Assembly: GCF_000422365.1 (NCBI RefSeq)
Contig: NZ_AULQ01000001.1
Coordinates: 372,001 to 436,000 of the forward strand
DNA: 64,000 nucleotides
Direction of reading: 5' to 3'
Source: Mesoflavibacter zeaxanthinifaciens DSM 18436
GTDB taxonomy: Bacteria; Bacteroidota; Bacteroidia; Flavobacteriales; Flavobacteriaceae
Position numbers and translations under genes: made by a program. Numbering within the stretch: position 1 is the stretch's first letter; the number at the start of each line of letters is the position of its first letter. The notes under the pieces are model-generated. The model made no database searches. It saw only the letters and a list, made by a program, of their open reading frames with translations, and was not told where the DNA came from. Below, one piece after another: positions 25,655-30,311 of the stretch.

Positions 25655-26158
25655 ATGAAGAATAAAATTTTTATGTACTTGTTTATCTTTACGTTACTTG
25701 TTGTTTTGTTTCAGTACGTAAACACTAAAAACTATGTAAAAGCTAATGATAGTCAGTTTAAAAGTTTAAAAGAAAAAAATATTAGAATGAAAGATTCTTT
25801 AGCGCTTTTAAACAATCAGCTAAATGATTTTATCATGTTTGATTTTAGGTATAATCAAGAAGCTAAAGATTATTTTTATGATAGAGGTATTGATACTGAT
25901 AAGCTTACAATACTTATAGAAAATGAATTATACGATTTAACAGACGCATCTGGAGAAGATCATCCACTAATTCCTTACGCTGCTTCAGGTGGCAAAAAAA
26001 TGCAATTTAATTCTATAAAAATACTAAACCATAAATGGGTTATAGCAGATTTTTCTGATGGTGTTTTTTGGGGAGAATTACTAATTAAATATGAAATTAC
26101 TCCTGATAATCAGTTAAACTTCAAAGTTTTAGATCACTTATTGTATCCTACAAATTAG
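25655..26158 (+). CDS. Membrane-anchored coiled-coil protein of unknown function
   Basis: The protein has 167 residues. One N-terminal membrane segment (about 4-22, KIFMYLFIFTLLVVLFQYV), a short coiled coil (about 35-60, FKSLKEKNIRMKDSLALLNNQ) and a globular C-terminal part with GRG/DTDK and YPTN at the end. There is no lipobox, so the anchor is probably uncleaved with the domain in the periplasm. It follows the metallo-hydrolase by 14 bases and overlaps the end of the convergent esterase gene by 11 bases. No family is recognised. Confidence 0.75.
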   Translation: MKNKIFMYLFIFTLLVVLFQYVNTKNYVKANDSQFKSLKEKNIRMKDSLALLNNQLNDFIMFDFRYNQEAKDYFYDRGIDTDKLTILIENELYDLTDASGEDHPLIPYAASGGKKMQFNSIKILNHKWVIADFSDGVFWGELLIKYEITPDNQLNFKVLDHLLYPTN

Positions 26159-26801
26159 AGTTTTCTTTTAGCCATTCTCTAAACTCATAAAAATTCTGTG
26201 GTGCAACACCATGACCAACAGGAAATTCGCTATACTTATAGTTAACTCCTAATTGCTCCATAAATGGTTTGGTTTGTCTAGCCCAATCCACAGGTATAAC
26301 TTGGTCAACACTACCGTGTGAACAATAAAAATTAAGATTTTTATATGTTACTGGATCTTTTAATTCAAATAAATCAGGATTTACATAACCGCTTAAAGCA
26401 ATAATATTTTTAACTTTTTCAGGATATGTAAATGCTACAGCATAACTTAAAATAGCACCTTGACTAAAGCCTAAAAGCGTTACATTATTTCTATCTGCGT
26501 TGTATTTAGCTAAAATTTCATCTATAAAATTAGCAATCAAATCTCTAGACTGTTTGGCTTGCTCGTTATCACTCCATTTTCCTTTTTCAGCATCAAAATT
26601 TATAGCATACCATGCATTACCAAAAGGCTGCATTGGGTAAGGTGCTTTAGCAGAAATTATTAAAAATTCCTCAGGTAATTCTGATGCAAAACTAAATAAA
26701 TCATTCTCATCACTTCCATAACCATGAAAGAGTAGAAGTAATGGTGCATTTTCTTTTAAGGTTGAAGGTCTTACTAAATATTCTAAGCTTAAATCTGTCA
26801 T
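26148..26801 (-). CDS. Alpha/beta hydrolase, carboxylesterase/phospholipase family
   Basis: The protein has 217 residues, typical of the small YpfH/carboxylesterase group. LLLFHGYGSDENDL is the oxyanion-hole strand, Ser113 in GFSQG the nucleophile, with the aspartate in SVDQVIP and the histidine in PVGHGVAP. There is no signal peptide, so it should act on soluble esters or lysophospholipids in the cytoplasm. It is the last gene of the operon that begins at 30311, with only two bases after the DUF4870 stop. Confidence 0.9.
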   Translation of the reverse strand: MTDLSLEYLVRPSTLKENAPLLLLFHGYGSDENDLFSFASELPEEFLIISAKAPYPMQPFGNAWYAINFDAEKGKWSDNEQAKQSRDLIANFIDEILAKYNADRNNVTLLGFSQGAILSYAVAFTYPEKVKNIIALSGYVNPDLFELKDPVTYKNLNFYCSHGSVDQVIPVDWARQTKPFMEQLGVNYKYSEFPVGHGVAPQNFYEFREWLKENSNL

Positions 26802-26803
26802 TA

Positions 26804-27136
26804 TTATTTAACTATTGATGAAAAAATTTTTTGAAAAAATGGTCCTACTAGAGGAACAGCTTGCATTTTACCGCTAATAGCATTTATAATTCCGTAGAAA
26901 AATAATAAACCCATTCCTACCCAAAAAGCGACAGAGATTTGCATATTATCAAATTGACTAATAAAATATCCAATAATCATATACATTAAACAAAGTCCTA
27001 AACCTTGACGGTTATGAAAAGCTGTAAACTCGTTTTTTTTATCGTTATTCATTATGATAGCAATAACACTACCTATGATGGTTAAGTAGCTTACTACTGC
27101 TAATGTTTTTCCTTCTTCAGCTGTATTTTGATTCAT
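26804..27136 (-). CDS. DUF4870 small membrane protein
   Basis: The protein has 110 residues with three helices (about 11-28, 49-65 and 71-90). The signature TAFHNRQGLGLCLMYMIIGYF places it in DUF4870, a family distantly like Tic20 whose role is unsettled. The start codon overlaps the upstream stop by one base, so translation is coupled within the operon. Confidence 0.85.
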   Translation of the reverse strand: MNQNTAEEGKTLAVVSYLTIIGSVIAIIMNNDKKNEFTAFHNRQGLGLCLMYMIIGYFISQFDNMQISVAFWVGMGLLFFYGIINAISGKMQAVPLVGPFFQKIFSSIVK

Positions 27137-28386
27137 TATAAAACTATTTTTTTGTTGGCATAAATACCATATGCTTTTCCTTTTAATTCTTGTCCTAAAA
27201 AGGCACTATTTTTTGATTTTGATAAAATGTTTGACTTACCAAATACGTATTTTTCATTTGGATTAAATAGCGTAATGTTTGCAACTTCTCCTTCTTCAAT
27301 TTTAGAAGTTATAGAACCAAAACGTTCTTTTCCTTTAGTTAATAGTTGAATAGATTTTTTTGTGGAAAATATCTGGTTTAAAGCACTAAAAGCACTTTCT
27401 AATCCAATAGTACCGTAGTTGGCGTGGTCAAATTCTACTTTCTTTTCTTCTATAGTTTGCGGATTATGATCACTGGTTACCATATCTATCGTACCGTCTT
27501 TTATACCTTCAATTAAAGCATCTATATCGTCTTGAGTACGTAATGGCGGATTGACTTTGTAACGTGTATCAAATTCGTTTAAAACATCGTCAGTCAAAAA
27601 CAAATTATGTATAGCAACACTACAAGTAACGTCTAATTTTTTTTCTTTGGCTTCTCTAATTAGCTTTACACTTTCTTTAGTTGAAATGGTAGGAATATGA
27701 AGTTTACCACCAGAATATTCTAAAATGTATAAATCTCGAGCCACTTGTAAAGATTCGGCTAAATTCGGGCTTCCTTTTAGACCTAACATAGTGCTAGAAA
27801 CATGCTCGTTAACAATACCTTTACCAGCAATTTTTTGTTCTAAAGGAAAACTACATACCAAGCCATCAAAATTACTAGCATATTGTAAAGCAATCTTTAA
27901 TAGATTAGGGTTAGTAATTGGTTTTTTATAATCACTAAACGCTACTGCGCCAGCGTTTTTCATATCGAAAAGTTCAGCTAAATCAACGCTTTCACTATTT
28001 TTTGTTAATGCGCCAATTGGTAACAAATCAACGGGTTGTGTTTGTGCTTTTGATAAGACAAAAGTAACGTCAGAACTGGTGTCTATGATAGGATTTGTGT
28101 TAGCTTGCAATGCAATGCTTGTAAACCCAGATTTTGCAGCTGTTTTTAAACCGTTTTCTATAGTTTCTCTATCTTCAAAACCAGGTTCGCCAAAGCAAAC
28201 GCTAGAGTCAAACCATCCTTGAGAGATGTGTAAATTATCTAACTCAATTTCTTTATAATTGCTAGTGTTTTTAATAGATTTAGCAATTTGTGAAATCTTT
28301 CCTTTTTCAATTAAAACATCAACAATTTGATTATGAAACTTGCTTGATGTATCAATTACTGTTGCCGATTTGATTAAGACGTTCAT
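27136..28386 (-). CDS. Dihydroorotase-like amidohydrolase with degraded metal site
   Basis: The protein has 416 residues aligning through the dihydroorotase framework: start of the barrel, GEPGFEDRETIENGLKTAAKSGFTSI, LHIPTISTKESVKLI and TSDHNPQ. In active enzymes the first strand reads D-x-H-x-H-x-R-E-P-G. Here it is D-S-S-V-C-F-G-E-P-G (residues 60-69), so both metal-binding histidines and the substrate arginine are gone. The usual HxED site reads CSFPLEQ, and DHAPH reads DHNPQ; the catalytic aspartate of the last strand remains. It is probably not a dihydroorotase by itself. It may be a structural partner of aspartate transcarbamoylase, like PyrC' in Pseudomonas, or have another role. It overlaps the BatA/VWA gene by four bases. 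Confidence 0.85.
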   Translation of the reverse strand: MNVLIKSATVIDTSSKFHNQIVDVLIEKGKISQIAKSIKNTSNYKEIELDNLHISQGWFDSSVCFGEPGFEDRETIENGLKTAAKSGFTSIALQANTNPIIDTSSDVTFVLSKAQTQPVDLLPIGALTKNSESVDLAELFDMKNAGAVAFSDYKKPITNPNLLKIALQYASNFDGLVCSFPLEQKIAGKGIVNEHVSSTMLGLKGSPNLAESLQVARDLYILEYSGGKLHIPTISTKESVKLIREAKEKKLDVTCSVAIHNLFLTDDVLNEFDTRYKVNPPLRTQDDIDALIEGIKDGTIDMVTSDHNPQTIEEKKVEFDHANYGTIGLESAFSALNQIFSTKKSIQLLTKGKERFGSITSKIEEGEVANITLFNPNEKYVFGKSNILSKSKNSAFLGQELKGKAYGIYANKKIVL

Positions 28387-30311
28387 TTAAAATATTTTAA
28401 GATGAGCATTTCTATGATTAAAAACACTAAAGCCAAAATTACAAACCATTTCCATAACTCATCAACTTTAGTGTCATTTTTTATTGTGTTAAAAGCTTCT
28501 TTAACAGAGTTTGAAACAGTGATGCCTTCTATGTTTTCAAGGTTTTGATAGGTTAAATCACTTTCGTTTCTGTTGTAGTTAAAGCTTACGTATTCTAAAA
28601 TTTCATTTTTATTCTTTATTTCATAAACACCAGCGTTTTCTGGTAAATCGTTAGTTTTTATAACCACTTTATTGTTGTAGTATTGCTGTTCTGGTATTAT
28701 AGATTCTTCATTATTAACAAGAGTTAATACAGTATCTGGTTGTAAATTTACAGACACATCAAATTGATTGTTTAGACCGATTGTATAATAAAGTTGGGCA
28801 GCATTTAAGCTTTGTTTAGCAATGTTATAAAATGTAGGTACAATTAGATTTATATTTTTAAAGTTTGAATTGTCCTCATTAATTGCTGCGCTAAAAACAA
28901 ATACATTATTACGTTGTGATAAAAATGGTTTGTTATCTTCAAATTGAAGGATAGCAGTGCTTTGAGATGTATTTTGTGGAAAATACAGATTGACTTTTGG
29001 ATACTGAAAGTTATCTATACGCTTTTCAAAAACACCATTAGCGTAAATTGGATGCGCATAGTTTATGGATGTAATGCGCTTTTCTTGCTCTAAAATTGAA
29101 TTAAAAACACTAAAGTTAAATTGCTGTAAAAACGTGTTGTAGTCTTGTAAATTACCTTTTGTATTAGGTATAAAAGCAACAACGCCACCTTTATCTGTAA
29201 ACACTTTAAGAGCAGTAATTAAAGTGTTTGGCAGGTTTTCAATTTCGTTTAAAACGACTAGATTTTGCGTATCAAAAAGCGCATAATCTAATGTGTTTGG
29301 TGTTTTTTGAGTGAAATTAAATTCGTCTTCTGTAAAAATTCCATTTAAATAGTTGGCATCATCGTTAGACACTGCTAATACATTAATTTTTGAAGGCGTA
29401 TTTATGCTAAAGTATAAGGTGTTATCAAATTGAAGTTGCGTCTCGTCAATAGTAATTTTACCTTTTATAGTTTGATTGTTAGGTATTGTAAAAATAGCTT
29501 TGTTTTCGTTTTTAATTTCAACTGAAACTTTTGAGACTAATTGATCATTATTATATAACGATACAGGTAAATTAAAAGTAGTAGTTTGATTACTTTTTAA
29601 TAAAGCAGTCAACTCATAATTAGTTGCGTTTTGTTTAGAGATATACAAACTATCAATAAATGCATTTGTTTTATTAACAGGGTTTAACTGAACAGCACTT
29701 AAAGTGATGCTTGAATCTTTTTCAATACTAAATTCTTGTGTTTTTTGTTGGAAATCTGACACAAAAATCAAGTTTTTAATGCTATTTGCTTTATTAGAAA
29801 ATAGCTTTTTAGCTTTCAATAAAGCAGCGTCATAACTTAATTGATTTGAAGAATATTCAAGTTGAAGTAATTCGTTTTTAATTGCCTTTATAGTTGTGTT
29901 TCTATAACTATCAGTATTGGTTATTAGTGAGAATTTTTCATTCTCATCAATAGAAGTAATGATATCTTGTATTGCACGTTTTAAAAGTGGACCATTATTA
30001 CCTTTAGCTTGCATACTAAACGAGTTGTCTAGGTATATAACGGTTTCCTTTTCTGTGTTAAAACTATTAGTTTTTGAAAAATAAGGCTGAGCAAAAGCAA
30101 TGATAATAGCAGTTAAAAGTAGTAGCCTAGTTAATAAGACTAGCCACTTTTTAATTAGTTGACTTTTACGTGTTTGTAATTGTACCTTTTTTAAAATAGC
30201 AACGTTTGTAAAGTATTCTTTTTGAAACTTTCTTAGTTGAAATAAGTGAACAATAACGGGAATTAGCAGTAAGAAAAGCGCGTAAAGAAGTTCTGGGTTT
30301 TTAAACTGCAT
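28383..30311 (-). CDS. BatA-domain/VWA membrane protein
   Basis: The protein has 642 residues. The N terminus MQFKNPELLYALFLLLIPVIVHLFQLR is the BatA (TIGR02226) signature, followed by a second helix (LVLLTRLLLLTAIIIAFAQP). A von Willebrand A domain begins near residue 90 with IYLDNSFSMQA, a MIDAS-type DxSxS variant with N in the first gap. A large extracytoplasmic beta-rich region follows, and a C-terminal helix near 620-640. It is related to the Bacteroidetes aerotolerance (Bat) proteins but stands apart from any MoxR/BatB cluster here. It is first in an operon with the dihydroorotase-like, DUF4870 and esterase genes. Confidence 0.85.
   Translation of the reverse strand: MQFKNPELLYALFLLLIPVIVHLFQLRKFQKEYFTNVAILKKVQLQTRKSQLIKKWLVLLTRLLLLTAIIIAFAQPYFSKTNSFNTEKETVIYLDNSFSMQAKGNNGPLLKRAIQDIITSIDENEKFSLITNTDSYRNTTIKAIKNELLQLEYSSNQLSYDAALLKAKKLFSNKANSIKNLIFVSDFQQKTQEFSIEKDSSITLSAVQLNPVNKTNAFIDSLYISKQNATNYELTALLKSNQTTTFNLPVSLYNNDQLVSKVSVEIKNENKAIFTIPNNQTIKGKITIDETQLQFDNTLYFSINTPSKINVLAVSNDDANYLNGIFTEDEFNFTQKTPNTLDYALFDTQNLVVLNEIENLPNTLITALKVFTDKGGVVAFIPNTKGNLQDYNTFLQQFNFSVFNSILEQEKRITSINYAHPIYANGVFEKRIDNFQYPKVNLYFPQNTSQSTAILQFEDNKPFLSQRNNVFVFSAAINEDNSNFKNINLIVPTFYNIAKQSLNAAQLYYTIGLNNQFDVSVNLQPDTVLTLVNNEESIIPEQQYYNNKVVIKTNDLPENAGVYEIKNKNEILEYVSFNYNRNESDLTYQNLENIEGITVSNSVKEAFNTIKNDTKVDELWKWFVILALVFLIIEMLILKYFK

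Follow-up and report, generated by a model that had tools for sequence, protein, structure and literature searches.

The pseudo-dihydroorotase gene (pDHO, Table 1) of Mesoflavibacter zeaxanthinifaciens, located in the analysed window of 64,000 nucleotides, probably codes for a catalytically dead dihydroorotase (DHOase) that acts as a structural, and possibly regulatory, subunit of aspartate transcarbamoylase (ATCase), in a manner resembling the class A2 enzymes. Sequence comparisons indicate that the metal site has been lost, that the fold and the gene are kept, that the genome has a separate DHOase, and that pDHO follows one particular group of PyrB proteins.

Table 1. Positions of pDHO, two of its segments and the adjacent genes in the window
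Feature	Positions	Strand	Remarks
Pseudo-dihydroorotase (PyrC'-like, pDHO)	27136..28386	-	416 aa, ATG start, type-I DHOase fold without metal site
Codons 60-67 of pDHO, D-S-S-V-C-F-G-E	28186..28209	-	Replaces D-x-H-x-H-x-R; H61, H63, R65 lost, D59 kept
Codons 180-214 of pDHO, counterpart of A. aeolicus loop A	27745..27849	-	Includes lost H180 (F here)
BatA-N/VWA membrane protein	28383..30311	-	642 aa, D-x-S-x-S motif; 4-base overlap with pDHO start
Small membrane-protein-like ORF (DUF4870-like)	26804..27136	-	110 aa; 1-base overlap with pDHO stop
Carboxylesterase-like (Abhydrolase_2) ORF	26148..26801	-	Last of co-directional run

Fold and remodelled active site of pDHO

A full-length type-I DHOase fold is supported by profiles, PDB relatives and a structure model. 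The protein aligns with DHOase profiles from end to end (pyrC_multi, 284 bits; cut-off 279), gives a weak match to Pfam Amidohydro_1 (36 bits), and has the A. aeolicus DHO chains as its best PDB relatives (E ~1e-68). The model, made with 24 homologues as input (mean pLDDT 92), is closest to type-I DHOases and superimposes on the ATC-bound form of A. aeolicus DHO (3d6n_A) with a TM score of 0.94, as against 0.77 for isolated A. aeolicus DHO. This agrees with the preliminary description of the gene, according to which length and framework are kept. The gene is intact and under constraint: relative to Olleya, which provides the nearest relatives among the named genomes (79-82%), and other near relatives, its dN/dS is about 0.06-0.11 (NG86), values that are only rough because dS exceeds 1.

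Alignment to A. aeolicus DHO, whose numbering is used here, reveals the changes H61 to S, H63 to C, R65 to G, D153 to Y, H180 to F, H232 to T and H309 to Q, with D59, N95 and D305 retained. The replacement of D-x-H-x-H-x-R by D-S-S-V-C-F-G had been described exactly; the additional claim that further ligands are missing is right in that five of the six metal-ligand positions of active type-I dihydroorotases are gone (H61, H63, D153, H180 and H232), and needs amending in that the sixth, D305, survives. Among 110 sequences from Flavobacteriaceae the altered residues are nearly fixed as D-S-S/C-G-N-Y-F/Y-T-D, a near-identity which means that they reflect neither chance nor sequencing error, and S61, G65, Y153 and T232 have entropies of 0.25 or less within this family, compared with a median of 0.86. 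The former active site as a whole (codons 60-66, 153, 180 and 233) combines above-average conservation in Flavobacteriaceae with wide variation between the families of the class. It is possible that the remodelled site of the Flavobacteriaceae constitutes a new ligand pocket.

The segment corresponding to loop A displays a conserved NE-x-x-x-STxLGLKGxPxxAE stretch after position H180, and only at its residues 190-194 does the pLDDT of the model fall below 50. In A. aeolicus, loop A is disordered as long as DHO is free and adopts an ordered form only when ATC is bound (PMC3880350). A segment that is conserved, yet predicted with least confidence in a model of the lone chain, fits one that is bound by a partner.

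Association with PyrB and with the neighbouring VWA gene

A second DHOase of the PRK09236 type, which is not the type of pDHO and forms a separate branch in the tree, is encoded on another contig (L002, 1342-2688, 448 aa). It has Q at H61 and keeps all other compared ligand positions, with H63, R65, H180, H232 and D305 in place, and it closely resembles a P. gingivalis protein of the same type whose structure has been solved (2gwn) and which shares the motif DDQVHFREPG. Homologues of L002 from two PyrI-bearing genomes (L240 and L241) have H instead of Q at the first histidine of H-x-H. In G230 and G238, which comprise all PyrI-bearing Bacteroidia genomes of the phylum sample and are without pDHO, the PRK09236 type is the only DHOase relative detected, so it is presumably sufficient as DHOase. 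L002 is a plausible catalytic DHOase in its own right. The preliminary description had pointed to a second pyrC as a check on its proposal of a non-catalytic role; L002 supplies it and rules out that pDHO is the only DHOase of the genome.

The form of pyrB, likewise raised there, is that of a pyrR-pyrB operon without pyrI: on a third contig (L008), pyrB comes after pyrR, with the pDHO gene on contig C1 and pyrB, not adjacent to it, on C5. No PyrI_C match was found in the Mesoflavibacter genome (G000), which sets its ATCase apart from class B, where PyrI is the regulatory subunit. Among solved structures, its PyrB is nearest to the ATC proteins of S. aureus and A. aeolicus, and it belongs to the ATC branch that pairs with type-I DHO.

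Phyletic patterns connect pDHO with this form of PyrB. If non-catalytic type-I proteins matching at E<=1e-30 are counted as pDHO, it is present in 117 of 139 sampled Bacteroidia genomes, and all 117 carry the same PyrB orthologue, 63-100% identical to that of Mesoflavibacter; in none of them (0/117) does another PyrB take the place of the orthologue. At these thresholds 20 genomes have neither protein and two (G319 and G379) have PyrB only, and in both of the latter a more sensitive search recovered a 419-aa pDHO copy of 26% identity adjoining the VWA gene. Some of the 20 are cases of divergence: the four genomes of family f85, likewise accounted for by searching with greater sensitivity, have a diverged pDHO homologue (cut by a contig end in G330) together with a diverged PyrB (44-46%), and the three of family f92 have PyrB at 47-48% identity. 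Next to a diverged VWA gene, the f92 genomes (L250/G374, G346 and G399) also have ORFs (about 350 aa) whose similarity to pDHO is confined to the N terminus; this is no more than suggestive, and the ORFs may be an extreme remnant of pDHO or another protein.

Clear absence of pDHO goes with a PyrB accompanied by PyrI in families f11, f96 and f101 (all five genomes with PyrI are without pDHO), and in f82 and f71 no PyrB was found. Family f2, which belongs to the same order and lacks pDHO, has a PyrB closest to that of B. subtilis (E 1e-103), and G372, whose congeners have pDHO, is without it and has a PyrB of the ATC-II type. Most lineages whose PyrB is of another form (accompanied by PyrI, Bacillus-like or of the ATC-II type), or that have no PyrB, are without pDHO. 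The one exception left is G311, with a diverged pDHO beside VWA (L342) and no PyrB found in an assembly of 230 contigs; either this assembly is incomplete or pDHO is retained there for another reason. In G343 this PyrB is intact and pDHO is split into two frames. As the genomes share ancestry, the 117 co-occurrences are not independent and amount to far fewer events, with about half a dozen separate exchanges. Since pDHO is retained wherever this one form of PyrB is retained, it is most likely the structural partner of that ATCase. After correction for PyrR, the evolutionary distances of pDHO still track those of PyrB (partial r 0.51, n=49) and, almost as closely, those of VWA (partial r 0.44), so that this measure does not tell PyrB and VWA apart.

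Translation of pDHO is coupled to that of its neighbours, as had been noted from the operon: an ATGA overlap joins it to the upstream VWA gene and TAATG joins it to the downstream small ORF. The assignment of the upstream neighbour as BatA/VWA also stands, and the DUF4870 label of the downstream one finds weak support, as the DUF4870 profile gave no match to the protein encoded in the window and 23.8 bits, below the cut-off of 25, to the orthologous neighbour in L010. In the class-wide loci compared, the DUF4870-like gene adjoins pDHO in Flavobacteriaceae only. The VWA protein has two membrane-anchor ends in addition to its D-x-S-x-S motif. For the Abhydrolase_2 ORF at the end of the run no link to pyrimidines or to the function of pDHO was seen.

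The VWA gene lies upstream of pDHO, with short gaps or overlaps, in most loci across the class, including all 79 Flavobacteriaceae loci in which the upstream ORF could be read; this gene order is strikingly conserved. That pDHO adjoins VWA, and not pyrB, in most of the class counts against a role in ATCase, and pDHO could instead be a partner of this membrane protein with a role outside pyrimidines; the correlation of pDHO and VWA distances that persists beyond PyrR and PyrB together (partial r 0.31, p 0.007) and the occurrence of pDHO and VWA in G311, where PyrB was not found, point the same way. However, G408, G372, G327, G359, G385 and G166 have a full-length VWA gene and no pDHO at all, and in G007, G033 and G076 pDHO is present but no full-length VWA was detected. 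Moreover, pDHO disappears when the type of PyrB changes, whereas VWA can stay (G408 and G372). We accordingly regard such a partnership as an unlikely account of pDHO; VWA as an obligate partner explaining its retention is ruled out, as each gene occurs without the other. The pairing of the two genes is old and class-wide, yet separable both ways, and may be regulatory or historical, or conceivably reflect a physical link.

Class-wide extent and origin of the loss

In 67 Bacteroidia homologues from outside the Flavobacteriaceae the ligand positions are scrambled and differ from family to family, with the framework retained. Scoring these class-wide pDHOs at 75 positions that show no variation among 12 active type-I DHOases, 10 of them from other classes of the same phylum, gave a mean retention of 26% for ligand positions versus 79% for non-catalytic ones (one-sided p 0.0003), and positions 61, 63 and 232 exceed the 80th percentile of variability across the class. 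As to fixation of these changes in the clade, also raised in the preliminary description, the answer is thus two-fold: the residues are fixed within the Flavobacteriaceae, and the loss of the site extends to the whole class.

All 10 homologues sampled in other classes of the phylum are fully catalytic. Three of these (L191, L193 and L194) show the gene order pyrR-pyrB-pyrC, in which an active type-I PyrC directly follows a PyrB that is 58-59% identical to that of Mesoflavibacter. In a tree of 52 rows with the PRK09236 type as outgroup branch, all 38 non-catalytic rows form one clade (support 100/99), which adjoins active enzymes of the same phylum at a fork supported by 94/77. A single clade implies one ancestral inactivation, and one event before the radiation of the Bacteroidia is the economical reading of the tree; a merely local loss of function is ruled out by this class-wide, single-origin pattern. 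The apparent ancestry of the loss to the class is a point beyond the preliminary description. As the inactive proteins group inside the phylum's own DHOases, an origin independent of Pseudomonas PyrC' is suggested by this tree, in which Pseudomonas sequences were not included.

One member of the Bacteroidia (G072, L184) carries a fully catalytic type-I pyrC immediately adjoining a pyrB of another kind, and none of its genes passed the threshold for the PRK09236 type. Given that this PyrB is only 45% identical, the two genes form a separate pair, which apparently replaced the original one.

The loss of zinc ligands alone is no proof of inactivity, and activity has been reported for one PyrC paralogue whose ligands are altered (PMC2770081). 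It is thus conceivable that pDHO is still an enzyme, either a dihydroorotase or another amidohydrolase, whose mechanism has changed or works without metal, especially as D305, N95 and D59 remain and the remodelled pocket is so strongly conserved in Flavobacteriaceae. Against this, the high variability at positions 61, 63 and 232 across the class allows no common chemistry, five of the six ligand positions are gone, and another DHOase is present; we hence consider continued catalysis very improbable. That the pDHO gene is decaying into a pseudogene, or survives as an inert remnant carried along by its operon, as the extreme divergence in lineages such as f92 and the split frame in G343 might hint, is the least credible reading of all and already largely refuted by constraint, given the open frame in nearly all genomes, the presence in 117 of 139, the dN/dS of about 0.1, the 79% retention of non-catalytic invariant positions and the high-confidence fold of the model.

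Comparison with known ATCase complexes and implications

As in PyrC' of the class A2 ATCases of Pseudomonas putida and P. aeruginosa, we are dealing with a full-length type-I-like DHOase homologue that has lost its zinc ligands (other than D305) and with an active DHOase encoded elsewhere in the genome, which in Mesoflavibacter would be L002 as judged from its sequence. In Pseudomonas the PyrC' gene typically adjoins pyrB, though adjacency is not required for function, whereas in Mesoflavibacter the gene is unlinked from pyrB and paired with the VWA gene. The P. aeruginosa pDHO is inactive, yet needed for the activity and assembly of ATCase, and brings the melting temperature up to 77 C (PMC7053772). 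A non-catalytic role like that of PyrC', as previously proposed for the Mesoflavibacter protein, gains support from the separate DHOase, the fixed residues, the pyrB without pyrI and the co-occurrence with PyrB.

The DHO-ATC complex of A. aeolicus (class A1; 3d6n, 4bjh) offers a second parallel, as its DHO has the same fold and length as pDHO and the Mesoflavibacter PyrB comes from the same ATC branch; the A. aeolicus DHO is, however, catalytic, with all six ligands in place. An inactive DHO-like domain has also been kept with ATCase in the fungal CAD-like protein of Chaetomium (5nnl), a weak PDB match to pDHO, but this domain is part of a single multifunctional chain and belongs to a different DHOase branch.

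By homology with the A. aeolicus DHO-ATC and P. aeruginosa ATC-pDHO complexes, three pDHO dimers would hold two PyrB trimers in a 6+6 dodecamer, and this bridging would stabilise or activate PyrB. The history may have begun with an ancestor in which pyrR-pyrB-pyrC encoded an active ATC-DHO pair. Toward the Bacteroidia, the dihydroorotase chemistry would have passed to a PyrC of an unrelated branch, the PRK09236 type; the old type-I PyrC would have lost its metal site once, its gene would have moved from pyrB to the VWA gene, and the inactive protein would have been retained for its contact with PyrB. More speculatively, and with rather little probability in our estimate, pDHO might tether ATCase to the VWA protein so that pyrimidine synthesis is membrane-tethered or gated, or the pocket of the Flavobacteriaceae might be a ligand sensor controlling ATCase.

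The function proposed for pDHO is already known from Pseudomonas. What appears to be new is its ancestral spread in the Bacteroidia, the unlinked gene beside VWA, and the pairing with a PRK09236-type DHOase; the literature searched, which covered papers outside subscription, described no such case in Bacteroidia and yielded no pyrC mutants of Bacteroidia or Flavobacterium. If pDHO is indeed a subunit of ATCase, the usual ATCase architecture of the Bacteroidia would be an A2-like association of ATCase with pDHO, known to date from Pseudomonas, which would have been reached through an apparently separate inactivation of a DHOase. A gene present in most genomes of a large class, which matches dihydroorotase profiles, would then not be a dihydroorotase, with consequences for metabolic models and annotation. 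The Bacteroidia would also provide natural tests of this association, as several of their lineages exchanged PyrB and lost pDHO with it.
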